A stretch of 64,000 bases of DNA, from the NCBI GenBank assembly GCA_022709385.1, contig JAKLIX010000006.1, forward strand, positions 1-64,000, in the 5' to 3' direction. The stretch comes from Bacteroidota bacterium (GTDB taxonomy: Bacteria; Bacteroidota; Bacteroidia; Bacteroidales; CAIXZF01). Shown one piece after another: positions 28,155 through 52,524 of this stretch (within the stretch, counting starts at the first letter, position 1; each line of letters starts with the position of its first letter). Position numbers and translations under genes: made by a program. Under the pieces are notes generated by a model that made no database searches, was not told the DNA's origin, and saw nothing but the letters and a program-made list of their open reading frames with translations.

Positions 28155-28526
28155 CTACAGACCTTTATTAACATCAAATTCCCGGGTGGAGGCATTGCAT
28201 GCAATGATGCATTTTTTTCTTGGTTTATCGTACCTCTTCAAATACCTCCCATTCACCACCGTCGACCGGTTGATGCGGATAAAGTGTTGTTGCGGAAGGG
28301 CTTTATGCACCTTTCCGAGGTTTTGGGCAGTGATTTCCGTACCTCCGTCGGTGGTGTGTATATGGGTGTAGTTGTTATCGGCTGTGAGGTAGAGAATTTC
28401 TGAAGGGTGGAGGAAGAGGATCCCGTTCCGGGTGGGGAAGCGCAGTTTCAGGAAACCTGCCTGTTCCTCTACAAAGTTTTTGACCAGCTGCAGGATTTCA
28501 TCCGTCTGTTCATTTGATGTGGGCAT
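28155..28526 (-). CDS. Stand-alone LytTR DNA-binding protein
   Basis: The 123-aa protein consists of a short helical N-terminus and a LytTR DNA-binding domain (about 25-120). Motifs include ILFLHPSEILYLTADNNYTHI, the characteristic FIRINRSTVVNGRYLKRY and a terminal strand. It lacks a receiver domain, so it is probably not controlled by phosphorylation. It ends 47 bases before the start of the 2572-aa protein on the same strand and could regulate that gene or be co-transcribed with it. A degraded copy of its first 13 codons is found at 32351, in front of the second copy of a 669-bp repeat. Confidence 0.8.
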   Translation of the reverse strand: MPTSNEQTDEILQLVKNFVEEQAGFLKLRFPTRNGILFLHPSEILYLTADNNYTHIHTTDGGTEITAQNLGKVHKALPQQHFIRINRSTVVNGRYLKRYDKPRKKCIIACNASTREFDVNKGL

Positions 28527-28567: not shown

Positions 28568-29236
28568 AGTAATATTATAACGAAAATCCGCCATTCCGAC
28601 AACAGGTCGGTTTGGGTGAGGGAGCGGCAGTTACTGTTGAGGGAAGCCTCCCCTGATTTGAGGGAAGGGCTTGCGTGGCATGATTAATCCGGGCTCTGAA
28701 CGCCCGGGGAAATATACTCAAGCTTGACAGCTTTGCGAATGCATAGCTGTTTAGCATGCGTAATGCCGTACACCGCTCTATTGAGGATTTTTCGCAAAGC
28801 CGCTCCGTGTCGGCATTTTACAGCCTGATGACCTGGGTCGAGGGATCGGCCGACTCATAGGCAATAAGTCTCAGGGGGATATCGGGATAATGCTCATGGA
28901 ATGTCTTGTATTTCGATGTTTTGACTTCCGTGATGCTGAATTTGCATTCAAATGCGCTTTCCTGACCGATGGCAGGCTGTACGATAAAGTCAATTTCTCT
29001 CTGGTCAGCCGTTCTCCAATGAAGGATCTGATCCCCCCCGTAAAGCTGTCGCAGTCTTATAAACAGATAGTTCTCAATAAGTTGTCCCTTGTCGATCCGG
29101 GCCTGCGGTTTATCAAAATAATTCAGCAGGCTGTTCCGGAGTCCGATATCATGAAAATAGACCTTCGGCATTTTCGTAAGCTCATTCCTGATGTTCCTTA
29201 AGAAGGGCCTGACCAGCCTGATATAATATGATTTCT
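28568..29236. repeat. 669-bp direct repeat, copy 1
   Basis: This stretch is nearly identical to 32394-33062 (offset 3826), with only scattered mismatches. It contains a non-coding spacer with a 105-bp palindromic element and the 3' part of a DUF4143 ATPase gene. The identity stops abruptly at 29236/33062. Confidence 0.92.
28713..28816 (+). repeat. 105-bp dispersed palindromic element, copy 1
   Basis: One of five copies in the window. It starts TATACTCA, holds an imperfect 21-bp inverted repeat (ACTCA...CTTGACAG facing CTGTTTAG...), then GCCGTACACC, TTTTTCGCAAA and an ending CCGTGTCGG. It abuts the stop codon of the truncated DUF4143 ATPase. Copies 1 and 2 are more diverged from the other three. 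Confidence 0.8.
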
Positions 29237-29249
29237 TCAGAAAATACAC
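28818..29249 (-). pseudogene. Truncated DUF4143 ATPase (3' fragment)
   Basis: About 140 codons match the C-terminal third of the intact ATPase at 32644-33879 almost residue for residue (KMPKVYFHDIGLRNSLLNYF, then HWRTADQREIDFIV). The whole AAA+ part with the Walker motifs is missing. The homology breaks at 29236, and the GTG at 29249 lies in unrelated sequence, so this is a duplication remnant rather than a functional gene. Confidence 0.85.
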
Positions 29250-32393: not shown

Positions 32394-33062
32394 AGTAATA
32401 TTATAATGAAAATCCGCCATTCCGACAACAGGTCGGTTTGGGTGAGGGAGCGGCAGTTACTGTTGAGGGAAGCCTCCCCTGATTTGAGGGAAGGGCTTGC
32501 GTGGCATGATTAATCCGGGCTCTGAACGCCCGGGGAAATATACTCAAGCTTGACAGCTTTGCGAATGCATAGCTGTTTAGCATGCGTAATGCCGTACACC
32601 GCTCTATTGAGGATTTTTCGCAAAGCCGCTCCGTGTCGGCATTTTACAGCCTGATGACCTGGGTCGAGGGATCGGCCGACTCATAGGCAATAAGTCTCAG
32701 GGGGATATCGGGATAATGCTCATGGAATGTCTTGTATTTCGATGTTTTGACTTCCGTGATGCTGAATTTGCATTCAAATGCGCTTTCCTGACCGATGGCA
32801 GGCTGTACGATAAAGTCAATTTCTCTCTGGTCAGCCGTTCTCCAATGAAGGATCTGATCCCCCCCGTAAAGCTGTCGCAGTCTTATAAACAGATAGTTCT
32901 CAATAAGTTGTCCCTTGTCGATCCGGGCCTGCGGTTTATCAAAATAATTCAGCAGGCTGTTCCGGAGTCCGATATCATGAAAATAGACCTTCGGCATTTT
33001 CGTAAGCTCATTCCTGATGTTCCTGAAGAAGGGCCTGACCAGACTGATATAGTATGATTTCT
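32394..33062. repeat. 669-bp direct repeat, copy 2
   Basis: This is the partner of 28568-29236. Here the repeat holds the 3' end of the intact DUF4143 ATPase gene and the non-coding spacer beyond it, including palindromic element copy 2. It marks a duplication of the junction between a LytTR gene and the ATPase gene. Confidence 0.92.
32539..32642 (+). repeat. 105-bp dispersed palindromic element, copy 2
   Basis: It is identical or nearly so to copy 1 because it lies within the 669-bp repeat. It abuts the stop codon of the intact DUF4143 ATPase, which suggests a transcript-end or insertion-site role. Confidence 0.8.
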
Positions 33063-33879
33063 GGAGTATATATAAATATTGGTCGATAGTCCTGGCATTG
33101 TAACTGAGAGTTCTTGCCAGTTCATTGGTATTGATCAGCTTGCCCGTCTGATGGGCAAGCAAAACGGCAAGCCTGTATACTTTCAGATAGTTGCTGTTTT
33201 CCGATTCGAATACATCCTTTTTCAGATAGGTTTTTACCAGTTCACCCAGCATGCTTTGCTTTTCCCGGGGATCTTTTTCCGAAACCACTGCGGGATACCC
33301 GCCGAACACGAGGTATTCATCAAAGGCTGCCCGGAGTTCCCTGGAACGAAGGGAGCGGTAAGCTGGCTTTTCCCTGAGCAGCTTGGTTTCTTCAATGAGT
33401 GCCGTTCTTTCACTTAGCTCCAGAAACTCTTCAAAATCAAGTGGAAACAGTTCGTATATCCGCATTCTGCCTGCAAGGCTGTCTTTGAACCTTGTGTCGA
33501 GATAGAAGGCACTGCTTCCCGTTGCGATGATTTTCAAGCCTGCGCCATGTAGGTCGTAGAGGTATTTAAGAAGGTTGGAAGGATTGGCGCTTAGCTGGAT
33601 TTCATCGAGTAACAGATATAATTTCGATCCGGAAGCGATGTCGGCATTCTGGGGCATATCCCTGAGATATCGCAGCACGTTTCCGGGATGTTCATCGACT
33701 GCAGCCAGTACCTCCGGATCCTCCAGGGTCAGAAACTGCGTGCTTTCCTTCCTTTCCCTGAGTTCCTGTTGAATCTGTTTCAGTAAAGTTGTCTTACCTA
33801 CCTGCCGGGCTCCGGTTATCAGGATATACTCCTTACGTAACAGACTATCAAGAATGGTGGTTAAGAGTTTCCTTTTCAT
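32644..33879 (-). CDS. DUF4143-family AAA ATPase
   Basis: The complete 411-aa ATP-binding protein has a Walker A motif GARQVGKT (23-30), a Walker B motif LYLLLDEIQ with D92 and E93, a sensor-like IIATGSSAF, a winged-helix-like middle and a C-terminal DUF4143 domain with a nuclease-like HWRTADQREIDFIV (E-I-D plus later E-C-K). Such proteins are common in Bacteroidota, often in multiple near-identical copies, and their function is not established. The C-terminal motif resembles restriction-type nuclease folds. A TATATTTG box lies 15 bases upstream. Its 3' third is duplicated at 28818, and another, more distant remnant lies at 34110. Confidence 0.9.
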   Translation of the reverse strand: MKRKLLTTILDSLLRKEYILITGARQVGKTTLLKQIQQELRERKESTQFLTLEDPEVLAAVDEHPGNVLRYLRDMPQNADIASGSKLYLLLDEIQLSANPSNLLKYLYDLHGAGLKIIATGSSAFYLDTRFKDSLAGRMRIYELFPLDFEEFLELSERTALIEETKLLREKPAYRSLRSRELRAAFDEYLVFGGYPAVVSEKDPREKQSMLGELVKTYLKKDVFESENSNYLKVYRLAVLLAHQTGKLINTNELARTLSYNARTIDQYLYILQKSYYISLVRPFFRNIRNELTKMPKVYFHDIGLRNSLLNYFDKPQARIDKGQLIENYLFIRLRQLYGGDQILHWRTADQREIDFIVQPAIGQESAFECKFSITEVKTSKYKTFHEHYPDIPLRLIAYESADPSTQVIRL

Positions 33880-34542: not shown

Positions 34543-37500
34543 TCAGTCCTTTTTCAGCAGCAGCACTGTCCCTTTGCGTTCGTGGCGTTCGCCGTTCACG
34601 TCTTTCAGGCGGATAAAGTAGTTGTAAACGCCAATCGGGCAGAATTCCCCGTCCTTTTTACCGTCCCAGGGTTCAAAGAAGTTGCTGGTGGAGAAAATCT
34701 CTTCGCCCCAGCGGTTGAAGATCACCATCAGGAAGTCATCGGGATCGACATATACGCCCTGGGGGCCGAAATGATCGTTCCGGCCATTGCCGTCGGGGGT
34801 GAAGGCATTGGGGATATAGAAGGCAGATTCGGGGTAGATGATGATCAGCTCACTCACGGAGTCTTCGCAGTTGTTGTCGTCTATCACATGGAGGGTGACC
34901 ACGTAAGTGCCGGTATCGCTGTATTGGTAGAGCGGGTTTTGCGTGCTGAGCTGGGTTCCGTCGCCCATATTCCAGAACCATTGGTATGGGATCAGGGAGT
35001 AGGTCTGGTCGGTGAACCTCACAAAGCCATCGAGGGCACTGGCTTGTGGCGGGTTAAAGGAGAAGGCGGCCTGGGGTGCCCGGTAAAGGGTGTAGTAGTC
35101 CTCCCTGAACAGGGAATCGCTGCAGCCATGGTTGGAGGTGACCGTAAGCAGGATGCTGTAGTGTCCTTGCTGGTTGTATGTGTGGGTGACATTACCCGAT
35201 GCGAAATCTTCCGTCCATCCGTCCCCGAAATCATAGGTATAGTTGGCGAGGTAACCCGAATCGATGGTACTGAGGTCTGTAAAAGTGACCAGGCCGGGCA
35301 AGCCGCAGTCGAAGAGGGGATCTGCCGTGAAATGCACTTCAGGAAGGGGATACAGGCACACGGTCATGCTGGCGGAGTCCCTGCATCCTTTATCCGAGAC
35401 AGCCAGCAGGCTTGCCTGGTACAGCTGGTATTGCTGGTAAACCGTGGGTGGAGGTTCTGTCGCGTTGAGCGGGGGACTGCCGTTGCCCAGTTCCCAGGTA
35501 AAGCTCATACTGCCGCCGCTGATGAAGGAGGTGTTCTGGAAGGTGGTGGCTTCGCCGAAGCAGACACATTCGCTCAGGAAAGCCGCCCTGGGATTGGGAT
35601 GTACGGTGATGGTATCCCAGGCGGTATCCTGCAGGATATTGCCGAAGAGCTGGGCTGTGGCAATCAGCATCACGATGTACTGGCCGGGCTGGGAATACAA
35701 ATGGTAGACCGTATCCGGGGCCGGTGCCAGAACAAGGAGCGGGCTTCCGTCACCGAAATCCCAGCTGAGGCTGCTGATCACGCTGTTGCCTCCGGCAGTC
35801 GACAGATTGGCAAAGGCGGCAGGAACGCTGTCACAAAGCGGGTTCAGGGGATCAAAGGCAGCCTGGAGGCAGGGACAGCGGTAAACGATTTGTGTCACCG
35901 TATCGCTGCAACCGAGGGAGTTGGTGACGATCAGGGTGACCAGGTATACGCTGTCGGTCTGGGGGTAGAAATGCCAGACGGGCGTTCCGGGGACACTGAC
36001 ATGCAGGGTGTCGGCTGCACCTGATCCCGGATCTCCGAAGTACCAGGTCCACGAAACGATACTGCCGTTTACGGGCAGACTCAGGTCGGTAAAGACCGTG
36101 GAGTCATTGCAACAGGCGAAACTCGCAGCAAACTGGGCCAGCGGAGGCGGATAAATATCCAGGTACCTGACAGCGCTGTCCACGCAGTTGTCTGCATTGG
36201 CGGCGGTAAGTGTCACAATATAACTGCCGGGTGCCTGGTAGAGGTGTTGCGTGGCAGTGGTAGTGACCGTGCCCTGGTTGTTATCCCCGAAGTCCCAGCT
36301 CCACTGGTTGACCAGGGTTCCGGGCGGAGAGGCGGATGCGTTGAAAAGCACGGGACTGTATAGACAGGTATCGGTATAACTGAAGCCGATGTTGAACTCG
36401 GGTTTCACTGAGATGATCTGGGTAAGGGAATCGGAACAACCCCTGTCGTTGGTAACGGTAAGGCTGACGGGATAGCTTTGTCCTGCCGGGATGAAGACAT
36501 GGTAGGGATGGACGGAATCCGAATAATAGAACTGGTTGAAATGCCAGTGATATTGGGTAATGGTGCTTCCGTGTCCCTGGGAAAGGTTGTGGAAGTAAAT
36601 CATCCCCGGCTGGTTGCCGCTGAAGCAGGTATCCGTATATGTGAATGCAGGTATGGGCAGGGAATCCACCAACACAGTCCGCTCGATGGTATTCACACAG
36701 CTGTTAGCATCGGTTACGGTCAGTTGTACGGGGAAATGGCCCCAGTGGGGGAAGAGGTAGGAGATGGTGTCGGATCCGCTCTGGTTTCCGGTATTGTTGA
36801 AGTTCCACATCCAGTTGCTGATGGAGGAGGAGGGTGAGACTGACAGGCTGCTGAAGTGTGTCGGATTGCCGAAGCAGGCGGTGTCGAAGCTAAAGGCCGG
36901 TTGCGGCAGGGGATGGATAACGACGGCCTGCACCAGGGTATCGAAGCACGCATCTGTATTGCCGATGATCAGCTGCACATTGAAGCTGCCCGGCTGGGTG
37001 TAGGTATGCTGGGGATTGGTCTGGTAAGAAGTGTCGAACTGCAGGGCCAGTCCGGGATCGTTGAATTTCCAGTACCACTGACTGATGTTTCCGCCATTGG
37101 GCAGGGAGTTTCCGGAGTTGAAAGCGGCTGCCTGGTTGAAACAGACCGGGTCGTTGACCGTGAAGGCGGCTTCCGGTTTGGGTTTGACCGTCACCAGCCG
37201 GGAGGCGGAATCCATACAGCCGGGTGTATTCTGAAGGATGAGCCAGGCGGTGTAGGTTCCGGGATCGGCATACTGATGATACGCGATGGTGAAAGGGCTG
37301 ATCATGCTGCTGTCATCCCCGAATTTCCACAGTCGCTGGGTGATATTTCCCGTTCCTGCGGAAGAGGTGGAGGTGAAGGCCGTGGCCAGGCCGAAGCAGA
37401 CGGTATCGCAGTGGAAACTGACCTGGGGCAGGGCATGCACTTCCACGTTTTTCACGGTCTGGTCGTGGCATCCGAAAATGTCGGTTACCTGCAGGCCGAC

Positions 37501-40500
37501 CTGGTAAACACCCGGGTTGGCGAAGGTATGGACGGGATCGGGAACCAGGTCGAAGAAGCCGCCGTCGATGGTCCAGTACCAGTCCGCAAGGGTGGCCGTA
37601 CTTATGGACTGGTCGGTAAAGCTTACCTGGTTTTGCTGGCAGGGCAGGTTATAGGAGAAGCCGGGTTGTGGCAGGGCCCTCACCAGGACACTGTGCTGGA
37701 TGGTATCGCCGCAGCCCTGGAGGTAGTGGGCGATGAGGGTGACGGTATAGATGCCGGGGTGTTGGTAAATGTAAAGAACTGAATCATCGGTAGTTGCCTG
37801 CAGGGGACTGCCATCTCCGAAGTCCCATGTCCAGAATGATACCGTTGTACCTTCCGGTGACAGGACGAAGCTGTTCATTTGGGTGGGAGCGCCAAAGCAG
37901 ACCGTATCGGCAAAGAAGTCGAAGTTCAGGGGATGTTTCACGCAAACGGTGTCATGGATGGAATCGCGGCAGCCGCGGGCGTTGGTGACGGTGAGGCTGA
38001 CGGGGTAGCAATCATCATAAGGATAGAAGAAATGCAGGGGATCGCTCTGGGATGATCCGTACTGGTTATTGAAACGCCATTCCCAGTTGCTGAGGCTGCT
38101 GCCGTTGCCTGAAGAAAGGTCGGTGAACTGCACCAGTCCGGCGCTGAGTCCGGGAACGCAGGTATCGCTCCAGCTGAAAGCCGGAATGGGAAGGGAATCA
38201 ACGAATACCTGGTAAATCAGGTCGTTCACACAGCTGTTTTCATCGGTCACGGTCAGTTGTACGGGGAAATGGCCCCAGTGGGGGAAGAGGTAGGAGATGG
38301 TGTCAGTCCCGTTCTGGTTTCCGGTATTGTTGAAGTTCCACATCCAGTTGCTGATGGATGAGGAGGGTGAGACTGACAGGCTGCTGAAGTGTGTCGGATT
38401 GCCGAAGCAGGCGGTGTCGAAGCTAAAGGCCGGCTGCGGCAGGGGATGGATAACGACGGCCTGCACCAGGGTATCGAAGCACGCATCCGTATTGCCGATG
38501 ATCAGCTGCACATTGAAGCTGCCCGGCTGGGTATAGGTATGCTGGGGATTGGCCTGGTAAGAAGTGTCGAACTGCAGGGCCAGGCCGGGGTCGTTGAATT
38601 TCCAGTACCATTGGCTGATGTTTCCGCCATTGGGCAGGGAGTTTCCGGAGTTGAAGGCGGCTGCCTGGTTGAAACAGACCGGGTCATTGACCGTGAAGGC
38701 GGCTTCCGGTTTGGGCCTGACCGTCACCAGCCGGGAAGCGGAATCCACGCAGCCGGGGGTGTTCTGAAGGATGAGCCAGGCGTTGTAGGTTCCGGGATTG
38801 GCATACTGATGATAGGTGGTGGTAAAAGGACTGATCATGCTGATATCGTCCCCGAATTTCCAAAGGCGCTGGGTGATGTTTCCCGTTCCGGCGGAAGAGG
38901 TTGAGGTGAAGGCCGTGGCCAGGCCGAAGCAGACGGTATCGCTGTGGAAACTGACCTGGGGCAGGGCATGCACTTCCACGTTTTTCACGGTCTGGTCGTG
39001 GCATCCGAAAATGTCGGTTACCTGCAGGGCAACCTCGTAAACACCCGGATCGGTGAAGGTATGGACGGGATCGGGAACCAGGTCGAAGAAGCCGCCGTCG
39101 ATGGTCCAGTACCAGTCCGCAAGGGTGGCCGTGCTTGTGGATTGGTCGGTAAAGCTTACCTGGTTTTGCTGGCAGGGCAGGTTATAGGAGAAGCCGGGTT
39201 GTGGCAGGGCCCTCACCAGGACACTGTGCTGGATGGTATCGCCGCATCCCTGGAGGTAGTGGGCGATGAGGGTGACGGTATAGATGCCGGGGTGTTGAAA
39301 AGTATAAAGGACTGAATCAGCTGTAGTTGCCTGCAGCGGACTGCCATCTCCGAAGTCCCATGTCCAGGATGACACCGTGGTACCTTCCGGTGACAGGACG
39401 AAGCTGTTCATTTGGGTGGGAGCGCCAAAGCAGACCGTATCGGCAAAGAAGTCGAAGTTCAGGGGGTGTTTCACGCAAACGGTGTCATGGATGGAATCGC
39501 GGCAGCCGCGGGCGTTGATGACGGTGAGGCTGACGGGGTAGCAATCATCATAAGGATAGAAGAAATGCAGGGGATCGCTCTGGGATGAGCCGTACTGGTT
39601 GTTGAAACGCCATTCCCAGCTGCTGAGGCTGCTGCCGTTGCCTGAAGACAGGTCGGTGAACTGCACCAGTCCGGCGCTGAGTCCGGGAACGCAGGTATCG
39701 CTCCAGCTGAAAGCGGGAACGGGCAGGGAATCAACCGGGACGATATGATTGACGGCATGGGTGCATCCGAACTGGTTGGTGACCAATAGTGAGGCCGGGT
39801 GCAGGCCGGGAGCGGCAAAGATTAAATCCAGGGATGGCAGCGTGTCCCATTGTTGTCCAGCCATTGTCCACAGCCAGCTTGTGATGTTTCCTTCCGCACT
39901 TGTGGAAGTACTGCTGAGGAGGGTTGGGTTCCCGAAGCATGCGGTGTCATAAATAAAAGATGCTGCAGGCAGGGGGTAGACATGCAGGTTTTTAACCAGT
40001 GAACGGCTGCAGTTATTGGCGTTGCCGACGGCAAGTGTCACATTGAAATCGCCCGGGTGCGAGAAGCTGAAGTCCGGCGTCAGGCTGTTGTTGTTGATGT
40101 TGAAGGGTCCGCCGTCGCCGAAGTTCCATTCAAACCAGCTGATTGGACTGCCATTTCCCCCGGAGGCCGTCCCGTCGAAATGGGTGACATCCCCGAAACA
40201 GATGGTGTCATTGAACGTGAAAGCGGGCAGGGGAGCCGCATGTACCAGAACCAGGGCAGAATCTTTACCGGTACAGAGGTCTGAGTTTCCGATGATGAGT
40301 CTGACCATATAGGATCCTGCTTCGCTGTAGAGGTGATTCACCTGTGTTGCCAGGGTGTTCAGGGTGTCACCATCCCCGAATATCCAGGTTCTTTGTATGA
40401 TTCCGCCTATGCCGGGTGTCGAATTGTCGGTAAAGCTTGTGGCTGTCCCTTCACAGACCTGGGTAGCCGTAAAGTTCACCGAAGGAAGGTTGTGGACATG

Positions 40501-43500
40501 GATTTGCTGCAGCAGTGCGGATGAACATCCGGCGGCATCAGTCACCTCCAGTTGTACGGGGAATGTGCCGCTTCCGGGAAATACATATGTGGTTACCGGC
40601 AGGGAAGCCTGGCTTCCGTCGGGGAATGTCCAGAGCAGGGAAGTGACGGGTCCGTTGGCGGAGGTTGACTGGCTGGTAAACTGTATCGTATCGTTCAGGC
40701 ACAGATTCGTATGGGTGAAGGACGGAAGCGGCAGACTCCGCACGAATACATTTTGTTTCAGCGTATCTCTGCAGGAGAGGGAATCGATAATGATCAGGCT
40801 TACCTCAAAGATCCCCGCGGCAGTGAACTGATGGACGGGTTCGGCGGAGAAGGATATATTCTGTCCCATGGAGACCGGATCACCGAAATTCCATTGAAAA
40901 TATGTAATACCTGCTCCATTGCCGTCTGAAAGGTTTACGAAATGTGTGGTGTCGCCAAGGCAGACAGTATCGTATGAGAAACCGGCGAGGGGTTCGGGTT
41001 TGTTGAGGACAGGAAGGGATACGGTATCGGAGCACAGGTTTTGATCGACAATGATCAGGCTGACATCGACCCAGCCCGGTGCCATAAACGCATGACAGGG
41101 TGTGGAATCGTTGGAAAAATTGGACGCACCGGACAGGGGATCTCCGAAGTTCCACTTCCTGAAGAGAACCGGCAGGGTGAAGGTGTTGGATACATCGGAG
41201 AAACAAACCGGTGTTCCCTGGCAGTAGTTCTGGGTATGGACAAAATTGGCCACAGGATTTTGATGAACCACCACAGGATATATGTATGTATCCGTGCAGC
41301 CTTTTGAGTCTGTTACAGTCAACGAAACGTAATATGTTCCCGCTATCTGGAAGACATGCTGGGGATTTTGGGTATTGTCCCATGTTCCGTCGGCAAAATT
41401 CCACAGCCAGTTTGTTACGGGCAGGTTCATGCCGCTGGCAAAGCCATTGAACTGCACCACCCTGCCCTCACAGGCCGGGAAGTGTTCAAAAGAGGCCACA
41501 GGCGGGGGATACACCACCACTTCGCTGGTCAGCTTGCTTACACAGCCACCCTGGGTTTCCACGGTGAGCTGCACATAATAGGTCCCGCTGGCAGTGAAAT
41601 AGTGAATGGGGTTTTGTGCGGAGGAGGTCTGTCCGTCGCCGAAATTCCAGTGCCAGGATTGAATGTTGTTGGCGGGTGAATAGGAGATATCGGTGAAATG
41701 GACCGCTTCGTTCGTACATTGGTTTGTATCGAAGAGAAAGCCTGCAACCGGGCTTTCTTCAATGACGATCGTCTGGCTGGTCTGGTTAACGCAACCCCGG
41801 CTGTTGGTGATGCTGAGCAGTACATCGTAGGTACCGGGCAGGGTGTATGTGTATTCGGGATGTTCCAGGTGGCTGGTGTCATCGAGTGTGAATAAATCCC
41901 CGAAGTTCCAGGAATAGTTGGTAACAGGTGCCCCGGCGCCATTGGAGTAATTGGTGAAATAGGCCGGCTGTCCGGTACAAAGCGGGGATACCTGAAAACT
42001 GGGGTTGGGCAGGGGATATACGATGATTTCCTTTGTTTTGCTCCGCTGACATCCGTTGACATCAGTGACAAGGAGGCTGACATAATAGGTGCCGGCATTG
42101 GCATAGGTATGTGACGGGTTTTGCTGGTAAACGCCTGCGGAACCGTCTCCGAAATTCCATTGCCACTGGCTTAGTCCGCCTGCCGGAGCCGACGTTGAAT
42201 CGGAGAATTCGGTGGGCATGCCCCGGCATACTTTGGTGTATCCGAAATCCACCCCGGGAGGGGCGGCAACAGTCAAAGTATTGATAACCGTATCGCTGCA
42301 CTGGTTGGAGTTGGTCACAACCAGCCTGACAGGATAATTACCTGGTCCCCCGTACAGGTGGGTCGGGTGCTGGTTGGCAGAAAAATTTCCGAATCCTGAA
42401 GCGGGATCACCGAAATTCCAAACCCAGGAAGTCAGGAAGAGGGCATTGGGATTGCTGTTGTCCTGGAACTGCGTCTGCCCCTCCACACAGGGATAATTAA
42501 AGCTGAATGCGGCATCAGGACGCGGGAACACCTGCACCGTTTTGCTCACCGTATCGGAACAGCCCTGGTTGTTGGCCACTACCAGGCTGACCTGGAAGCT
42601 GCCCGGGATGGGGTAAAGGTGGAGCGGGTGTTGCAGGGAGGATGAGGTCATATCCGCGAAATCCCATTGCCATGAAACAAGATTGCCGTAAACGGGTACC
42701 GACAGATCGGTGAATTGGGTGGAAAGTCCGTGGCAGACGTCAAGCGGATTGAAATTGGCCAGGGGATGCGGATATATCGTGATGTTTTTTATCATGGTAT
42801 CTCTGCATCCGTTGTCATCGGCCACGATCAGCCGGACGGAATAGAAACCTGCCTGGTAATACTGATGTACAGGATTTTGATCGAATGAAACATTGTTAAA
42901 TCCCGACAGAGGTTCACCAAAATTCCAGGCCCAGTCAGTGATCAGGGTGACTGGGGAGGTGCTGAGGTCGTTAAACTGGATGGCTTCATTCTGGCAGATG
43001 TTGATATTCAGGAAGTTGGCTGTTGGTTTTGGTTGGATGGTGACCTGCTTCCAGGTTGTGTCCTTACATCCGTTGTTGTTTTCCACGATCAGTCTGACGG
43101 TGTAGGTACCGGCACTGGCGTAGACAAATTCGGGATGTTGCAGTGAAGATACGTCAAGGCTTGTGTTTTCCACTCCGAAATCCCAGTTCCAGGCGATGAT
43201 ACTGCTTTGCGACAGGTCGGTGAAATGGACGGCTTCTCCCTGGCAGGCTGCGTCAGTGATGAAGGCAGCTTCCGGGAGAGCCAGCACGCTGATCACCCTG
43301 CTGTGGGTATGCTGGCATCCTTTTTCGTCTGTTACCGTCAGACTTACGGTGTATTGTCCGGGACCCGGATACTGGTAGCCCGGGTTTTGTTCCAGGGAGT
43401 AGGAGAGTGGATTTCCCGGGTCGCCGAAACTCCAGGCCCATGTGATGATGCCTGATCCGTGTGGTATGGAAAGGTCTGTAAAGAAGACGGAATCCTGATC

Positions 43501-46500
43501 GCAGGGCAGGCTGTATTCAAATGCGGCTTCCGGAATGGAATCGACCACAACTTTATGCATGATTAGCTGTTCGCATTGGTGCTGGTCGGTGGCCAGCAGG
43601 AAAACGGTGTAAATCCCGGGATACAGATAGGTGTGGGAGGGATCGGGATCGAAGGAAGAACTTCCGTCACCAAAGTCCCATATCCAGGAAATGATATTGT
43701 CGCCTGAGGGTGTCAGCACGCTGTCGGTAAACCAGGTCGGACTGCCCCAGCAGGCGGTGTCGGCTGTGAAGTCTGCCTGGAAGGGCGGGCTTACGTAAAC
43801 GGGCAGGGTCACAGTGTCGCTGCAGCCTCTGGCTGAAGTGGCTGTAAGGCTGACCAGATAAGTGGTATCTGTGCTGCCGAACTCAAACAAAGGATGCTGG
43901 GCGCTGGAGGAATAATCATTTCCGAACTCCCAGAACCAGGATGCCAGGGGAGCACCGTTTGGCAGGGAAGTATTGGTGAATTGTACCTGACCTTCAGTAC
44001 AGTAGAGGTTTTGATAGCTAAAAGAAGGATAGGGCAGGGAGTCGGTCTGAACGGCATGGCTGACCGAATCCGAACAGCCGATGGTGTTGCGGATGATGAG
44101 TTTCACGCTGTCTTCTCCCCAGGCGGGAAAGATATAGGAGGGGTAAAGCTGGTTAAAGACCGTGTCATAGTTTCCGAATATCCATATCCTTTCTGTGATG
44201 AGTCCCATGGTATTGGTGGATCCGTCGTAGAAATGTGCCGGCTGCCCGAAGCATGCGGATTCAGTCTCAAAGGCGGCGTCGGGAATGGGATAAACCAGGA
44301 CATTCCTGCTGACCGGAGCCGAGAGGCAGCCATTGGTGTCCTTTACATAAAGCTGGGTGGTGTAGGTACCCGGATTGGCATAGATGTGGCCTGTATTCAT
44401 GTCCGGGAATGCAGTAAAACTCAGGTTTCCGTCTCCGAAACTCCAGAAGGAGGTGTCGATCTGATAAGGAGTACCGTAAGAAAAGTTGCTGAAACCGTTG
44501 GGATTGCCGAGGCAGGCGGTATCAATACCGAATGAGGCCACCGGCAGCGACCAGTAGGTGATGCTGACACTTCCCTGGGTGCTGCAGTTCCTGCTGTCTC
44601 TGACAGTTACAGTGTAAGTGCCGGCGGTCAGGTTATAGACAGAGTCGGTGGTTGAACCGGCGGCGGCATTCCATTGGTAGGTATAGGGTGGGGTGTTGCC
44701 GCTCACGGTAACGGTGGCATAGCCGTTGCTGCTCAGGTCGCAGATATTCGGAGTGTGGTTAAATACAAGCTGATAGGGAGGCGGCTGGGTGATGATGACA
44801 CTTCCTGTCCTCAACACGCCGCTGTTGTCGGTGACAGTGAGCGCATAAGTGCCGGGGCTGAGGTTAGTCCGGTTGTGGACACCGCTGCTGTTGGTCACGG
44901 TGGGACCGGGATTCCAGGCAAACTGGTAGGGAGGAACTCCCCCGCTCACCGTGGCCGTGGCAGTACCGTCGGCGGCTCCGTTGCAACTGATATTGGCGGA
45001 AACCAGGTTGAGCACCATCTGGTCAGGCTGGTACAGGGTCATGCTTTTAATGACAAAGCAGCCGTGGTCATCGGTCAGGGTCAGGGTATAGGTTCCGGCC
45101 GGCAATCCGCTCAGGTTGGGTGCGGTGGCACCTGTATTCCAGAGATAACCGTACGGGCTGGTCCCTCCTGTGGCAGTCGAATTGATAAAACCGTTGCTGC
45201 CTCCGTTGATGGTGGGACCTTGTCCGCTCAGGTTCAATGTGAGCACCGGGGGCGGGGTGATACTGACATTCTGTGTGGCGGAATAACAGGTCGGAAGATT
45301 GGCATCTCTTACTATCGCCGTATAAGATCCGGCACCCAGGCCGGTGAATTGGTTGGAGGCCTGAAATGGACCGGATAATCCGTGAATGGAGTATTCAAGT
45401 ACGCCGCTTCCACCCTGGGCAGTAATGGTGATGCTGCCGAAAAAGCCCGCTTCATTGCAGAGGGGGTCTTCCTTTTGTACGGCAGTGATCAGAAGCTGGG
45501 GCGGTTGCAGTAGACTTACGGAATTGACGGCCAGGCAGTTGTTCGCGTCCGTCACGGAAACGGTATAGGCACCTGCACAAAGGTTGTTGAGGCTCCATCC
45601 GCTAAAAGTATTGCTTCCGTTCGACCAGACAGGGATGCCATAGGGTGATGTGCCGAAGTTGGGAATGACCCCTGCCGTTCCGTTACAGGTGCCGTAACAG
45701 TTCAGATCGGTGTGGGTGACGCTGAGCTGTAAGGCTCCCGCGGGCTGTCCGACTGTGATGGTATCGCTGATCCAGCAAAGGCTGGAGTCGGTCACGATCA
45801 CCACATAAACACCGGTATCGAGGCCGGTCACGGTTTGTGTCAGCCCGATGATATTCTCTGCCGGAAGGGCTTTCCACTGCCAGGTGTAAGGGGCGGTACC
45901 CCCTGAAGGATAGGACACAGCCCAGCCGGTATTGCCTCCGTAACAGTCCACGTCATGCACATCCACATCCGTGGCAAGGGGGGCGATGACCACGGTGCCG
46001 TAATAATTACAGCCGTTATGATCGGTTACGGATACACTGTAAGTTCCTGCCATCAGCCCGTAAACCGAGTCCAGGGCTGAAGTGACGGGGCTCCAGGTGT
46101 ATGTGAAGGGAGCCGTGCCTCCCTGCACATAGGCTTTGATCCAGTAACCCGCCGTATCGCAGTCGATATTACCCGTGGCAAAGGTGACGATACCGGGAAG
46201 GGGTTCATAGATGGTGACCTGTCCGGATTTGATGCAGTGATTGCTGTCTGTCACTGTGACAAAATAAGTTCCCGCATTCAGGTTAAGGATATGGTCGGTG
46301 GTTTCACCTGTCGACCACTGGATCTGGTATGGAGGCGTTCCGCCGTAGGGATGAACCACGGCCCAGCCGCCGCCCATGCCGTTACACAGGGTGCTGTCGC
46401 TGGTGAATTGAAGATATACCGAAGTGTCCGGCTGGTCGATAAAGACAGAATCCGCCAGTTCACAGCCATCCCCGTCGGTTACGGTTACGAAATACCAGCC

Positions 46501-49347
46501 GGTGGTCAGGTTGAAGATGGTAGGGGCTGTGGAGCCGGTGGACCAGAGGTAGGTGTATGGGTTGGCCACGGTATTGGTTCCCCCGGCGGCCACGACGGTG
46601 GCCACGCCTGTATTGCCTCCATAACAAAAGACATCCTGGGCAATGATGGTGTCGTCGAGTTGTTTGATGCTTACGGTATCCACCATGGTGCAGAAATAGC
46701 CGTCGGTGACGGTGACCGTATAATCGCCGGGCACCAGGTTGCTGATGGTCTGGGTTGTGGCACCGTTGCTCCAGAGGAAGGTGTAGGGTGGCGGAGTGAA
46801 GGCGGGAGATCCCCCGCTCACGTTGGCCGTGGCCCAGAAGCCGGTATTTGAAAAGCAGTCGGCAGCCCCGGTGGCAAATTCGATGTCTATGGCCGTCGGT
46901 TCGTTGCGCTGGATGAGGCCCGACACTTTTTCACAGCCGTTCGCATCGATGACCTTTACCCTGTAGGTACCGGCATGCACAAGGATGGAATCTTCTGTGG
47001 TGATGATGGTGTCGTTCGGATAAGGCCATCCCAGGTTGATGGGGCCCATGAATACGTATGTATAGGGAGGTGTCCCTCCCGTTGCGTTGGCCACCAGCAG
47101 CGCGGTGCTGTCGCCGTGGCATTCGATGCTGACATCACCTCCCCCTACATTAAGGATCAACGGGGGTGGCTGGGTGATGACATAATTGCCGAAACTCCGC
47201 ACACATCCCACGCTATCTTTCACATAGACAACATAATAGCCATTCACCGGCGAAGGCGCCAGTGAATCGAAAAAGTTCGAATGCTGGTAGATGACGTTGT
47301 TGAGGCTGTACTGCAGCGGCCCCGTTCCCCCCTGGGCATAAATGGTGATGGTGCCGTTGTTGGCTCCGAAGCAACTCACATGGGTGATTACCGTATTCTG
47401 GTAAAGGGTGATGATGGGCGGGCCCGGCGTGACGAAGCTGCTGTCGAAACGGCAGCCATAGCTGTCCTTGATGTAAAAGGCATGACTGCCTGTGCCAAAG
47501 CCGTTGAACGTATTGTTAGCGTACCATTGCGGTTCGCACCAGAGGTAAGGCCAGTAGGTGCTGTACTGGTAAGGCCCCACCCCCCCGCTTATGATGAACT
47601 GGACACTGCCGTTGACCGAGTTGTAGCAGGGCGATACGCTGTCGATGATGATCGTATCCGGATGCAGCGCGATGTAAGGATCAAAGAACCAGTTCTGATT
47701 GCCTCCCAGATCTTCGGAGCGGAGGGCAGAGTCGGGAAGGGCGGGCGGATTCTGTGCAATGATATCCCGTATCGCCATGTAATCCAGGGTGAGTACACTG
47801 TCTGAAAGGAGAAAGGCCTGCACTGTCGTGTCTGAAGATCTGAGATAGGAGCGCATGCAATGGTAATCTCCCCAGTAAGTCAGGTCATCGAGAATATGCT
47901 GGGTTTTGTTTGATTGTATGGTAAGGGTATTGGCATAGTAGGAAAGGCAGGTGCAACCACAGGCATGGATTCTCCTGATATTCAGATCATAAAACGTATT
48001 GCTGCCCTCCAGTATCCATCCGTTGTACCAGAAATAGGTGGAATCGAAGTAGTTTTGTCCGCCGTAGACATAGCCGTCGCGGTTAAATTCCATTTTCTGG
48101 TGGACGGTATTGAAATTGGCGTGCAGTTCGCCGGTTTCCAGGTGGCCGCAACAGCCGCAGCCGCATCCGTGGGGATGGGTCGAAAACAACAATTGGTTAA
48201 ACGAATTATAATCTCCGTACACCCTACCCTGGTGGTAAATATCCACGATGTTGAAGGTGTTGTCGTTCACATTCCTGCCGACCAGCGAGAGGTTGCCGAT
48301 CCATCCGTTGCCCTGCATGGTCACCAGGTTGTAGGTGCTGTGGTTCCCGTTGATATACCCGTCGCTCCGGAACATGGAGTTGTGGAAGTTGTTCACGTTG
48401 CCGTCGATATAGCCTGTGCCGTGAAAGAGGGAATTGTAGATGTCGCTGGAATCACCGATGATGAAGCCGACGCCGTCGAAGGTCACATCGTAGTTGGAGG
48501 AATCCGCATCCACCACAATGTTATCGGCGATCAGCAGTTTACCCGGGGAGATATGGAAATGCACCAGGTCGTATTTCAGGTGGGATCCGGCATGCATGGT
48601 GGACCCGAAGGTATTGCTGGCGGCACCGTAGAAATGGATCTGGGAGTGATTTCCCGTAACCAGGGTAATGGTGGACGTGTTCCTGACGTCCCAGGCATAG
48701 TTCTCCCCGGTGTTTCCCGTGTTACCGGCCGTAATGGTCACAAAGGAATCACCGAGGTCGAGATAGCGCTGGTAGGTTGAGGTGGAGGTAAAGCGGGAAC
48801 AGGTGACATCCCAGCTGTTGGTGATGAGGCTTCCCTTGTCGAGGTTGATGGAGTAAGTAACGATGAAATCGTCAAGCAGGTTCCAGGTACCATTTCCGAA
48901 AAAGAAACAACTGGCCGGGATCCAGTTCCCGTTTGTGGTGATGGTTTCGGTGTTGTTCGACAGAAAGCGGGTATCGCCCTGGTATTTCACCCTCATTCTG
49001 GCACAGAATTGCAGGGAGCCGTGGATAAACAAACCCCCGGGACCAAAGAAAGTGACGGTATCCGAATAATCTTCCCAGTACATATCATGAAACTCGACCG
49101 TACTGTAGAGAGTGACCGTATCGGTGGGGGAATTGAAGGATGCGGCGTTGAAAAACACATTGTCGGACTGGCCGGGCAGTGTCGTGAAGACGGAAGAAGG
49201 ATACGCACCCCCCGATACATCCGACCAGTGGGTCAGATCGTCCCAGTTACCTGTGCCGCCCACCCAGTAGTAATCCTGCTGCGAATAAGCTTGCAGGCAT
49301 ACAAAGGCTAAGACGAATAAAAATATAAAACGGAGCCGGATATTCAT
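34543..49347 (-). CDS. Giant SprB/PKD-repeat surface adhesin with type B T9SS sorting domain
   Basis: The 4934-aa protein has a signal peptide (1-23). A domain begins DYYWVGGTGNWDDLTHWS, followed by a beta-helix-like region (about 290-450) with GYIDGN-type turns and two cysteine-rich knots (CGCGCCGH at 395-402 and HACGCTC at 461-467). About 13 SprB-like repeats (about 565-1597; GGTPPYTYLWS, AGTYTVTVTD) and 38 PKD-like domains (about 1600-4780; WDFGDG, PGTYTV) follow. Each PKD unit usually carries one Cys near its start and one in a Gly-Cys near its end, probably a disulfide. The last 95 residues (FYIPNAFTPDGNGRNDHFGP onward) are a gliding-motility-type CHU_C domain, the type B T9SS signal. 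SprB of Flavobacterium is the moving gliding adhesin; this protein is a related architecture, probably a surface fibre for attachment or motility. PKD units 20-25 are duplicated as 26-31. Long open frames on the opposite strand are shadows. Confidence 0.9.
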   Translation of the reverse strand: MNIRLRFIFLFVLAFVCLQAYSQQDYYWVGGTGNWDDLTHWSDVSGGAYPSSVFTTLPGQSDNVFFNAASFNSPTDTVTLYSTVEFHDMYWEDYSDTVTFFGPGGLFIHGSLQFCARMRVKYQGDTRFLSNNTETITTNGNWIPASCFFFGNGTWNLLDDFIVTYSINLDKGSLITNSWDVTCSRFTSTSTYQRYLDLGDSFVTITAGNTGNTGENYAWDVRNTSTITLVTGNHSQIHFYGAASNTFGSTMHAGSHLKYDLVHFHISPGKLLIADNIVVDADSSNYDVTFDGVGFIIGDSSDIYNSLFHGTGYIDGNVNNFHNSMFRSDGYINGNHSTYNLVTMQGNGWIGNLSLVGRNVNDNTFNIVDIYHQGRVYGDYNSFNQLLFSTHPHGCGCGCCGHLETGELHANFNTVHQKMEFNRDGYVYGGQNYFDSTYFWYNGWILEGSNTFYDLNIRRIHACGCTCLSYYANTLTIQSNKTQHILDDLTYWGDYHCMRSYLRSSDTTVQAFLLSDSVLTLDYMAIRDIIAQNPPALPDSALRSEDLGGNQNWFFDPYIALHPDTIIIDSVSPCYNSVNGSVQFIISGGVGPYQYSTYWPYLWCEPQWYANNTFNGFGTGSHAFYIKDSYGCRFDSSFVTPGPPIITLYQNTVITHVSCFGANNGTITIYAQGGTGPLQYSLNNVIYQHSNFFDSLAPSPVNGYYVVYVKDSVGCVRSFGNYVITQPPPLILNVGGGDVSIECHGDSTALLVANATGGTPPYTYVFMGPINLGWPYPNDTIITTEDSILVHAGTYRVKVIDANGCEKVSGLIQRNEPTAIDIEFATGAADCFSNTGFWATANVSGGSPAFTPPPYTFLWSNGATTQTISNLVPGDYTVTVTDGYFCTMVDTVSIKQLDDTIIAQDVFCYGGNTGVATVVAAGGTNTVANPYTYLWSTGSTAPTIFNLTTGWYFVTVTDGDGCELADSVFIDQPDTSVYLQFTSDSTLCNGMGGGWAVVHPYGGTPPYQIQWSTGETTDHILNLNAGTYFVTVTDSNHCIKSGQVTIYEPLPGIVTFATGNIDCDTAGYWIKAYVQGGTAPFTYTWSPVTSALDSVYGLMAGTYSVSVTDHNGCNYYGTVVIAPLATDVDVHDVDCYGGNTGWAVSYPSGGTAPYTWQWKALPAENIIGLTQTVTGLDTGVYVVIVTDSSLCWISDTITVGQPAGALQLSVTHTDLNCYGTCNGTAGVIPNFGTSPYGIPVWSNGSNTFSGWSLNNLCAGAYTVSVTDANNCLAVNSVSLLQPPQLLITAVQKEDPLCNEAGFFGSITITAQGGSGVLEYSIHGLSGPFQASNQFTGLGAGSYTAIVRDANLPTCYSATQNVSITPPPVLTLNLSGQGPTINGGSNGFINSTATGGTSPYGYLWNTGATAPNLSGLPAGTYTLTLTDDHGCFVIKSMTLYQPDQMVLNLVSANISCNGAADGTATATVSGGVPPYQFAWNPGPTVTNSSGVHNRTNLSPGTYALTVTDNSGVLRTGSVIITQPPPYQLVFNHTPNICDLSSNGYATVTVSGNTPPYTYQWNAAAGSTTDSVYNLTAGTYTVTVRDSRNCSTQGSVSITYWSLPVASFGIDTACLGNPNGFSNFSYGTPYQIDTSFWSFGDGNLSFTAFPDMNTGHIYANPGTYTTQLYVKDTNGCLSAPVSRNVLVYPIPDAAFETESACFGQPAHFYDGSTNTMGLITERIWIFGNYDTVFNQLYPSYIFPAWGEDSVKLIIRNTIGCSDSVSHAVQTDSLPYPSFSYQNLYCTEGQVQFTNTSLPNGAPLASWFWEFGNDYSSSAQHPLFEFGSTDTTYLVSLTATSARGCSDTVTLPVYVSPPFQADFTADTACWGSPTWFTDSVLTPSGDNIISWIWDFGDGSSSFDPDPSHTYLYPGIYTVFLLATDQHQCEQLIMHKVVVDSIPEAAFEYSLPCDQDSVFFTDLSIPHGSGIITWAWSFGDPGNPLSYSLEQNPGYQYPGPGQYTVSLTVTDEKGCQHTHSRVISVLALPEAAFITDAACQGEAVHFTDLSQSSIIAWNWDFGVENTSLDVSSLQHPEFVYASAGTYTVRLIVENNNGCKDTTWKQVTIQPKPTANFLNINICQNEAIQFNDLSTSPVTLITDWAWNFGEPLSGFNNVSFDQNPVHQYYQAGFYSVRLIVADDNGCRDTMIKNITIYPHPLANFNPLDVCHGLSTQFTDLSVPVYGNLVSWQWDFADMTSSSLQHPLHLYPIPGSFQVSLVVANNQGCSDTVSKTVQVFPRPDAAFSFNYPCVEGQTQFQDNSNPNALFLTSWVWNFGDPASGFGNFSANQHPTHLYGGPGNYPVRLVVTNSNQCSDTVINTLTVAAPPGVDFGYTKVCRGMPTEFSDSTSAPAGGLSQWQWNFGDGSAGVYQQNPSHTYANAGTYYVSLLVTDVNGCQRSKTKEIIVYPLPNPSFQVSPLCTGQPAYFTNYSNGAGAPVTNYSWNFGDLFTLDDTSHLEHPEYTYTLPGTYDVLLSITNSRGCVNQTSQTIVIEESPVAGFLFDTNQCTNEAVHFTDISYSPANNIQSWHWNFGDGQTSSAQNPIHYFTASGTYYVQLTVETQGGCVSKLTSEVVVYPPPVASFEHFPACEGRVVQFNGFASGMNLPVTNWLWNFADGTWDNTQNPQHVFQIAGTYYVSLTVTDSKGCTDTYIYPVVVHQNPVANFVHTQNYCQGTPVCFSDVSNTFTLPVLFRKWNFGDPLSGASNFSNDSTPCHAFMAPGWVDVSLIIVDQNLCSDTVSLPVLNKPEPLAGFSYDTVCLGDTTHFVNLSDGNGAGITYFQWNFGDPVSMGQNISFSAEPVHQFTAAGIFEVSLIIIDSLSCRDTLKQNVFVRSLPLPSFTHTNLCLNDTIQFTSQSTSANGPVTSLLWTFPDGSQASLPVTTYVFPGSGTFPVQLEVTDAAGCSSALLQQIHVHNLPSVNFTATQVCEGTATSFTDNSTPGIGGIIQRTWIFGDGDTLNTLATQVNHLYSEAGSYMVRLIIGNSDLCTGKDSALVLVHAAPLPAFTFNDTICFGDVTHFDGTASGGNGSPISWFEWNFGDGGPFNINNNSLTPDFSFSHPGDFNVTLAVGNANNCSRSLVKNLHVYPLPAASFIYDTACFGNPTLLSSTSTSAEGNITSWLWTMAGQQWDTLPSLDLIFAAPGLHPASLLVTNQFGCTHAVNHIVPVDSLPVPAFSWSDTCVPGLSAGLVQFTDLSSGNGSSLSSWEWRFNNQYGSSQSDPLHFFYPYDDCYPVSLTVINARGCRDSIHDTVCVKHPLNFDFFADTVCFGAPTQMNSFVLSPEGTTVSSWTWDFGDGSPLQATTADSVLYTFQHPGIYTVTLIAHYLQGCGDTIQHSVLVRALPQPGFSYNLPCQQNQVSFTDQSTSTATLADWYWTIDGGFFDLVPDPVHTFTDPGVYEVALQVTDIFGCHDQTVKNVEVHALPQVSFHSDTVCFGLATAFTSTSSAGTGNITQRLWKFGDDISMISPFTTTYHQYANPGTYNAWLILQNTPGCVDSASRLVTVRPKPEAAFTVNDPVCFNQAAAFNSGNSLPNGGNISQWYWKFNDPGLALQFDTSYQANPQHTYTQPGSFNVQLIIGNTDACFDTLVQAVVIHPLPQPAFSFDTACFGNPTHFSSLSVSPSSSISNWMWNFNNTGNQNGTDTISYLFPHWGHFPVQLTVTDENSCVNDLIYQVFVDSLPIPAFSWSDTCVPGLSAGLVQFTDLSSGNGSSLSNWEWRFNNQYGSSQSDPLHFFYPYDDCYPVSLTVTNARGCRDSIHDTVCVKHPLNFDFFADTVCFGAPTQMNSFVLSPEGTTVSFWTWDFGDGSPLQATTDDSVLYIYQHPGIYTVTLIAHYLQGCGDTIQHSVLVRALPQPGFSYNLPCQQNQVSFTDQSISTATLADWYWTIDGGFFDLVPDPVHTFANPGVYQVGLQVTDIFGCHDQTVKNVEVHALPQVSFHCDTVCFGLATAFTSTSSAGTGNITQRLWKFGDDSSMISPFTIAYHQYADPGTYTAWLILQNTPGCMDSASRLVTVKPKPEAAFTVNDPVCFNQAAAFNSGNSLPNGGNISQWYWKFNDPGLALQFDTSYQTNPQHTYTQPGSFNVQLIIGNTDACFDTLVQAVVIHPLPQPAFSFDTACFGNPTHFSSLSVSPSSSISNWMWNFNNTGNQSGSDTISYLFPHWGHFPVQLTVTDANSCVNTIERTVLVDSLPIPAFTYTDTCFSGNQPGMIYFHNLSQGHGSTITQYHWHFNQFYYSDSVHPYHVFIPAGQSYPVSLTVTNDRGCSDSLTQIISVKPEFNIGFSYTDTCLYSPVLFNASASPPGTLVNQWSWDFGDNNQGTVTTTATQHLYQAPGSYIVTLTAANADNCVDSAVRYLDIYPPPLAQFAASFACCNDSTVFTDLSLPVNGSIVSWTWYFGDPGSGAADTLHVSVPGTPVWHFYPQTDSVYLVTLIVTNSLGCSDTVTQIVYRCPCLQAAFDPLNPLCDSVPAAFANLSTAGGNSVISSLSWDFGDGSPLLVLAPAPDTVYHLYSQPGQYIVMLIATAQLFGNILQDTAWDTITVHPNPRAAFLSECVCFGEATTFQNTSFISGGSMSFTWELGNGSPPLNATEPPPTVYQQYQLYQASLLAVSDKGCRDSASMTVCLYPLPEVHFTADPLFDCGLPGLVTFTDLSTIDSGYLANYTYDFGDGWTEDFASGNVTHTYNQQGHYSILLTVTSNHGCSDSLFREDYYTLYRAPQAAFSFNPPQASALDGFVRFTDQTYSLIPYQWFWNMGDGTQLSTQNPLYQYSDTGTYVVTLHVIDDNNCEDSVSELIIIYPESAFYIPNAFTPDGNGRNDHFGPQGVYVDPDDFLMVIFNRWGEEIFSTSNFFEPWDGKKDGEFCPIGVYNYFIRLKDVNGERHERKGTVLLLKKD
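36659..38191 (-). repeat. 1533-bp tandem duplication, downstream copy
   Basis: This matches 38192-39724 base for base with scattered differences at an offset of exactly 1533 (511 codons). It encodes PKD units 26-31. The reading frame is kept across the junction. High similarity at the DNA level points to recent duplication or gene conversion. Confidence 0.92.
38192..39724 (-). repeat. 1533-bp tandem duplication, upstream copy
   Basis: This is the N-terminal-side copy, encoding PKD units 20-25, from FSWSDTCVPG to the matching start of the next copy. Similarity fades beyond the junctions, leaving only general PKD-level resemblance. Confidence 0.92.
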
Positions 49348-49486: not shown

Positions 49487-50242
49487 TCAGTATAATTTCT
49501 TCAGCTGCATGATCTGTTTCAGGCTGCAGGGAAGCTGGATAGATTTTCCGTCTTTGAGCAGGGTACAACTGCAGGTCATGGTGTTTACCCGTTTCAGGTA
49601 TTTCAGGTTGACGATCACCGAGCGGCTGATCCGGAAGAATCTTCCGGGTGGCAGAATTTCTTCCATCTTTCCCAGATGGGTGGTTACCAGTTCGGACTGT
49701 CCGGGAGAGAAGAAAATCTCGCTGTAATTGCTGTCGGCGAGTAAGTAAAGGATGTCGTCGGGATCCACCATGATGAACCCGCTGCGGACATTGAACCTGA
49801 TTTTTCCGGGGGGGCTGATTTGTTGCAGCAGCATGACCAATTGCTCCCTGTTGCTTTCTTTTTGTTTTTCCGCGAGCATCCTGTCAATGCAATCATTCAG
49901 TTCGCTTTGTTGCATCGGTTTCAGCAGATAATCGAATGCGGCATATTTGAAGGCACGGATTGCGTAATGGTCATGCACTGTGGTGAAGATAATGCGGGGA
50001 AGCGCATCCTGTGGGGAAATGCGGTCCAACAGCTCAAAGGCCGTACCGTCGCTCAGTTCGATGTCAAGGAAAGCTATATCTGGTTTTAACTTTAAGAGCA
50101 GCAGCAGTCCCTCTTCCACGGATCCGGCAGAACCCACCGGCCGGATTTGTTTCAGGCCGGAGAGCAGGTGGATCAGGGCATCACGCGCCTGTTTGTCGTC
50201 TTCGATGACAACGGCGTTCAGAAAAGGCAGTTTTGGGGTCAT
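49487..50242 (-). CDS. LytTR-family response regulator
   Basis: The 251-aa protein has a receiver domain (about 8-125) with D15/D16, phospho-acceptor D60 in FLDIELSDG, T87/T88 and K108 in LLKPM, and a C-terminal LytTR DNA-binding domain (about 150-250; RFFRISRSVIVNLKYLKRV). It would be phosphorylated by a LytS-type kinase. None is adjacent, and the only one in the window is at 17602-19695. The two genes have a closely similar promoter segment. It lies upstream of the giant adhesin on the same strand with a gap of about 140 bases, so it may regulate the adhesin. Confidence 0.9.
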   Translation of the reverse strand: MTPKLPFLNAVVIEDDKQARDALIHLLSGLKQIRPVGSAGSVEEGLLLLLKLKPDIAFLDIELSDGTAFELLDRISPQDALPRIIFTTVHDHYAIRAFKYAAFDYLLKPMQQSELNDCIDRMLAEKQKESNREQLVMLLQQISPPGKIRFNVRSGFIMVDPDDILYLLADSNYSEIFFSPGQSELVTTHLGKMEEILPPGRFFRISRSVIVNLKYLKRVNTMTCSCTLLKDGKSIQLPCSLKQIMQLKKLY

Positions 50243-51660: not shown

Positions 51661-52524
51661 TCAGTGCCTGGGCCAGCCTCCGATGCCGTATATTTTTGAA
51701 CTCCAGGGAGAGTAGGTCCGTGAAACTTTTTTAATGGTGAGGATAAAGTCCTCATGTTCCTGTATTTCCTTGGCATACAAATGAATAGCCAGTCCGACGG
51801 CTACAAGGTTTTCATCCGGTGGAAACCCGGCGCCGCGCAGTGAACGCAGTTTCTTTTGTTCTTTGCGCTTCTCCATGAAAATAAAGGCATTGGAGAAGTT
51901 TTTAAAGATGATGAACAGCATCAGCAATACCAGGAAGACCACCGACATAGCGATGGCGGCCATTCCTATCCCGACGGGGTCTATTTGCTGGAACTGTTGC
52001 GCGGCGGAAGTTCTGGGAGTGGTGTTGTTGTTGGCGTTTGGTGTGTTTTTTGGCAGAAAGATCCACGGAAGGCTGCCGTCTTCTGCTCTTCCGTAAGCGA
52101 TGCCTGCTTGCTGCGGGCCCCACGACAGGCTGTCGATCAGTGTCCGGCCGTCCGCATCGTACAGGGCGAGGAAGCGGCTTTCCCTCAGGTCGAAGTTCAG
52201 ATGCCTGATCCCATGGGTGGGTTGGTTGGCAGCCCAGAAGACAATATAGTTGCGTGGTGCGATCCTGGTGATGGGATCGCCTTTGGGGATGGGGTATTTT
52301 TTGGGGTCGGAAGGGTCATTGGTCAGGTAACAGCCTCCGATATCCACGTAATTGAAGGCAGTATTGAATATTTCTATCCAGGGACTGTGCTGCCCGAAAT
52401 CATCGATGTATCCGGAGTCATTATGTACGAGTATCTCATTGAATTTCAGGTCTGTCGTACTTTGGGCCTGCAGACCGGGCAGGTAGATACACCATAATAG
52501 GATGATAAATCCGGCTTTCTTCAT
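51661..52524 (-). CDS. OadG-like gamma subunit fused to a lamin-tail domain
   Basis: The 287-aa protein has a signal peptide (about 1-20), an extracytoplasmic lamin-tail (LTD) domain (about 25-155; [40 protein letters not shown]), one transmembrane helix (about 190-210, [19 protein letters not shown]) and a cytoplasmic OadG-like tail. OadG anchors the decarboxylase complex and is normally about 80-100 aa, so the LTD is an addition known from Bacteroidota. The LTD may contact the cell wall or periplasmic partners. Immediately upstream of oadB in the same operon. Gene assignment is by architecture and neighbour. Confidence 0.8.

Follow-up and report, generated by a model that had tools for sequence, protein, structure and literature searches.

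A long repeat inside the gene for a giant surface protein raises the question of whether the protein forms a fibre whose length is still varying, or whether the repeat is one step in the ordinary growth of such a fibre. The repeat lies in a 64,000-nucleotide stretch of DNA, hereafter the window, that opens contig C29 of a Bacteroidota draft genome (4.08 Mb in 32 contigs). The original prediction held that six PKD units are repeated in tandem, in frame and almost identically over 1,533 bp, that the other 26 units are much more diverged, and that this recent expansion suggests variation in fibre length, perhaps of an antigenic or adhesive kind. The genomes with which we compared the locus all lie outside its species and genus, and one of them, G001, belongs to its family.

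The gene occupies positions 34543..49347 on the minus strand, as do all of the features within it described below, and forms an open frame encoding 4,934 amino acids in which Pfam PKD_4, SprB and CHU_C all score above their cut-offs. From its start, the protein consists of a secretion-signal-like N-terminus (called by eye), an N-terminal domain, SprB repeats, 38 PKD units and a CHU_C type IX sorting domain. The SprB-repeat region (44545..47676) contains five stretches matching Pfam SprB, and is collinear with the ortholog in G001 at 39%. The PKD array (34819..44544) is identified by a PKD_4 score of 1,192.6 bits, against a cut-off of 27. Its count of 38 is based on boundaries set partly by hand; a local HMM, trained on these units and on those of G001, also finds 38, and Pfam PKD_4 by itself marks 31 stretches. 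The C-terminal CHU_C domain (34564..34815) scores 50.1 bits (Pfam cut-off 27), and the corresponding score for TIGR04131 is 33.5 bits, slightly below its cut-off of 35.

We looked for the partners expected of a type IX type B cargo protein, and found both SprA (SprA_N, 547.8 bits) and the PorP/SprF family (TIGR03519, five matches over the cut-off and one under it) in the genome. The PorP-family matches are all on contigs other than C29. Because the genome has SprA and PorP-family genes, secretion of the giant protein to the surface is likely; its display there, and any adhesive role, are suggested by its domains. In its CHU_C domain, its SprB repeats, its giant size and the presence of SprA and PorP-family genes, the system is like SprB and other type B type IX cargo adhesins of Bacteroidota, as the relevant portion of PMC11205867 describes them, where the likeness is one of domains and genome genes and the window's own contig carries no PorP-family gene.

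A structural model of units 20-22 (mean pLDDT 91.1, pTM 0.69) is PKD-like, and unit 22 superposes on the PKD domain of ColG with a Z of 14.2 and an rmsd of 1.1 Å over 83 residues, i.e., it is predicted to have the PKD fold. The three-unit model also superposes, across all three domains, on chains of GhpA from Aureispira (PDB fragments 9flw, 9flp and others; Z 10.0-12.7, rmsd 4.3-5.5 Å), which is likewise a giant type IX cargo protein, going by the passages of PMC13319060 on its size. However, the third unit alone fits ordinary PKD domains better, at the Z of 14.2 given above. No GhpA fragments are among the 14 PDB matches listed for the single protein or the 31 listed for a profile, from a PDB copy that may or may not contain GhpA, and we therefore read the superposition as pointing to a comparable rod-like arrangement rather than as evidence of shared ancestry. 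A grappling-hook function was considered and rejected: the likeness is at the level of the fold only, GhpA is not among the listed sequence matches, and the genome has no match to VipB of the type VI system.

Within the array, units 20-25 (codons 3209-3719) match the next run, units 26-31 (codons 3720-4230), in order and at a single lag, and this lag of exactly 511 codons keeps the reading frame. The core of copy 1 (38227..39729) differs from that of copy 2 (36694..38196) at 71 of 1,503 bp (95.3% identity), with no indels and with 24 of 501 residues changed. At the coordinates first proposed (36659-38191 against 38192-39724), 88 of 1,533 positions differ (94.3%). Protein identity within the six copy pairs is 89-99%, whereas the remaining 697 unit pairs average 33% and never exceed 48%, and chance is excluded as the source of the likeness. 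Thus, the in-frame 1,533-bp tandem duplication of six PKD units is confirmed, as is the far greater divergence of the 26 units outside the 12 that make up the copies. The copies differ at about 5% of their bases, with third codon positions accounting for two thirds of these differences, and so the description of the DNA as almost identical was a mild overstatement. The 1,533-bp repeat escaped Tandem Repeats Finder because the longest period that the program considers is 500. Searching the genome with the whole gene as a DNA query returned the gene itself and one 51-bp match, and so revealed no donor elsewhere.

Identity drops abruptly at the edges of the block. On the far side of copy 1 it falls to background at once, and past copy 2 it remains intermediate for about one unit, since units 20 and 26 have an older relative in unit 32. 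Our comparison of the outer edges found the 12-mer GATTCCCTGCCC, exactly matched, at both: where unit 19 meets unit 20, at copy 1's 5' edge (39721..39732), and where unit 31 meets unit 32, at copy 2's 3' edge (36655..36666). These identical 12-mers at the outer edges suggest unequal recombination. The junction between the copies (38188..38224) contains the 12-mer with one mismatch, together with about 25 diverged bases at the end of unit 25. The right side of this junction resembles the start of copy 1, and its left side the end of copy 2, which is the arrangement expected from unequal recombination. The exception is the patch of about 25 bases (38200-38224), which matches neither and differs strongly from the end of unit 31, so that a single clean crossover would not suffice to explain the junction without later change. 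No source for the patch was found in the gene, where its best match (16 of 24 bases) is uninformative.

The original prediction had proposed a measurement of synonymous divergence as a check. The dS between the copies is 0.150 (95% bootstrap interval 0.103-0.205) and dN/dS is 0.142 (0.080-0.235), with third codon positions carrying 47 of the 71 differences. The copies have therefore drifted with purifying selection acting on both, and they show no sign of diversifying selection, as might be expected under antigenic variation. Conversion of this dS to years requires a calibrated relative. The six-unit duplication is by far the youngest in the array, yet it is neither fresh nor identical. Accordingly, the idea of a recent expansion stands in the sense that the event is the youngest in the array, is in frame and lengthens the stalk, but not in the sense of ongoing variation, given two copies separated by this divergence under this constraint.

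There is also evidence of older events. Units 17-21 (39205..40485) match units 23, 24, 25, 32 and 33 at 38-45% amino acid identity, as partners in an older six-unit duplication. The lag-6 signal persists when units 26-31 are removed (permutation P 0.0006 for lag 6, and 0.015 for any lag from 1 to 15). The ortholog in G001 is broken over two contigs (loci L123 and L124, on C44 and C85) that share an exact overlap of 141 bp. When joined, it has about 4,968 residues, with the start codon picked by eye, and 38 units, by hand-aided counting. It is collinear with the window gene (38% over 2,970 columns) and lacks the window's duplication. Instead, it has its own in-frame duplication of 12 units, with units 6-17 copied as 18-29. 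The copies in this block are 51-80% identical per unit in amino acids and 65% over the block, with dS saturated, while adjacent units in this ortholog are at most 43% identical. A third, more distant ortholog, recognized by its N- and C-terminal matches (G230:C74), has a frame of 5,855 codons with 45 PKD matches, and no long block of high identity.

A FastTree analysis of all 76 units recovered the copy pairs of both genes: 12 of 12 in G001 (support at least 0.96) and six of six in the window gene (at least 0.94). Units 20, 26 and 32 join unit 32 of G001, and unit 3 joins unit 3 of G001 (supports 0.76-0.87), a pattern that would place the window's expansions after the split of the two lineages. 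Tree support for the older events is moderate, at these values of 0.76-0.87, and one placement conflicts with the simple picture, in that unit 33 pairs with unit 33 of G001, not with units 21 and 27. The common ancestor appears to have had about 26 units, since 38 minus 12 in G001, or minus 6 and 6 in the window gene, gives 26; both genes now have 38.

With a probability of roughly 0.78, the best explanation as a whole is a six-unit segmental duplication by unequal recombination, followed by purifying selection, that is the latest of several block expansions. In this mechanism, unequal recombination between two similar unit boundaries would have placed an in-frame copy of six PKD units in the stalk, and the copies would afterwards have been kept under purifying selection as they gathered about 0.15 synonymous changes per site. 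The event would be the latest of a set of multi-unit expansions that includes the older six-unit one in the same gene and the independent 12-unit one in the sister-genus ortholog. Copying a block of unlike units would leave neighbours dissimilar (identity of 47% or less) even as the stalk lengthens. The longer stalk would, in turn, carry the N-terminal part further from the cell.

The evidence must also be considered in light of other explanations. A sharp block, with differences that are evenly spread and mostly synonymous, would likewise be produced if the duplication were recent and arose by unequal recombination between diverged alleles of different strains, such that the 5% difference predates the duplication. 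We regard this as unlikely, while giving it some weight: it requires an extra assumption, and no second allele of the species is present among the compared genomes.

The idea of ongoing length variation has a well-described precedent in Periscope Proteins, surface proteins with stalks made variable in length by highly similar tandem repeats, according to the portion of Whelan et al. 2021 (PMC8201768) that deals with them. In this scenario, the copy number of the block would shift rapidly between strains, and would thereby tune the reach or antigenicity of the fibre. The giant protein resembles that class in having a long surface stalk, tandem folded domains and a long DNA repeat within the gene; moreover, a long in-frame repeat of high DNA identity could recombine, and the expanded blocks differ between genera. 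However, in Periscope Proteins, as characterized in the same portion of that source, adjacent domains are highly similar and repeat number varies between strains, whereas neighbours in the window gene have a mean identity of 32.5% and a maximum of 47%, and its similar units are six apart. There are, in addition, only two copies, about 5% apart, with a dS of 0.15 and a dN/dS of 0.14. Rapid variation of this kind is accordingly improbable in our view. A related bacterium separately lengthened the same protein by copying a different block, and so the expansion of the stalk is an ordinary route of growth for such fibres and not proof of rapid surface variation.

It is more doubtful still that the duplication is old and was partly homogenised by gene conversion between the copies. 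The differences are spread nearly evenly along the block, with mild clustering in a squared-gap test (P 0.02); this clustering, the range of dS among sub-windows (0.07 to 0.27) and the anomalous end of unit 25 would fit conversion, but a longest identical run of 104 bp is unremarkable (longest-run test, P 0.33) and there is no clear identity tract. Thus, some gene conversion is possible and is not needed. Finally, tandem repeats are often misassembled and the genome is a draft in many contigs, but an assembly artefact, or two strain haplotypes placed end to end, is unlikely to the point of meriting almost no weight, because a doubled contig or looped repeat is not expected to give 71 differences distributed along the block, a frame intact over 4,934 codons and a junction whose 18-mer occurs once in the 4.08 Mb genome, and the longest exact match between the copies is short enough for common k-mer sizes to resolve.

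Given the segmental duplication that we favour, the equal number of units in the two genes deserves comment. Their agreement at 38 may be a coincidence. A speculative alternative, to which we give little credence, is a preferred stalk length: from an ancestor with about 26 units, one gene would have added six plus six and the other twelve, and both would have stopped at 38 (4,934 and about 4,968 residues). If this were true, selection would act on how far the fibre physically extends, and not on its sequence. As a general rule, length conservation was rejected, as the G230 ortholog, with about 45 units, counts against it. If further orthologs reach one unit number by different routes, fibre length would become a selected, testable trait.

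To place the duplication among related arrays, we surveyed 104 frames with PKD matches, 84 of which have at least eight units. These 84 take in the window gene, the joined G001 gene, the G230 ortholog and at least one further frame of this genome, and near-duplicates such as L041 and L042 were kept. At an amino acid identity of at least 55%, a multi-unit block (at least two consecutive units at one lag) was found in 20 of the 84 frames, a single pair in 15 and neither in 49. Any unit pair at 85% or more is present in six frames, and the window gene has the highest mean identity among the blocks listed. Short-read assemblies tend to lose identical repeats, and young duplications are therefore probably undercounted. 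A search for close relatives found 78 loci in genome contigs (best identity about 35%) and two distant loci in viral contigs, the latter being left aside. At the DNA level, an internal repeat of at least 240 bp at 75% identity or more occurs in four of the 78 loci, none above 80%; this count used the longest plus-strand frame of each locus, not necessarily the PKD frame, and the protein-level survey repeats it on PKD frames.

Multi-domain expansion of repeats is a known process, of which this duplication is a clean new instance. Domain repeats expand by several domains at once, often in the middle of the array, as reported in the part of Bjorklund et al. 2006 (PMC1553488) on this process, and here, too, several domains were copied together, mid-array and next to their origin, with a fixed lag between similar domains. 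The expansions described there are mainly in eukaryotic proteins, and the term "PKD" is absent from that text. Neighbouring domains in large proteins are usually less than 50% identical, as noted in the passages of PMC8201768 on this point. Block copying of unlike domains lengthens the stalk while neighbours stay dissimilar, a property believed to avoid misfolding. In this locus, the growth of giant type IX-secreted fibres can be seen in a well-bounded case whose divergence has been measured.

Several neighbouring genes in the window are also of note. The giant gene has a LytTR-type response regulator (49487-50242) immediately upstream, 139 bases away and in the same orientation; another LytTR gene, a shorter one, occupies 28155-28526. 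FG-GAP repeats occur in a histidine kinase (17602-19695). A 2,572-residue protein (20389-28107) matches FG-GAP, CARDB, Ig-like and dockerin-type domains, and its secretion-tail match falls below the cut-off. A 660-residue protein (12880-14862) has a caspase-type peptidase domain. A gene for a Laminin_G_3 protein is flanked by a full AAA_14/DUF4143 ATPase (32644-33879) and by a short DUF4143 frame (28818-29249) that looks like a remnant. At 51661-52524, a Lamin Tail Domain is joined to a region that weakly matches the oxaloacetate decarboxylase gamma chain, and this gene adjoins that of the beta subunit (50486-51640).
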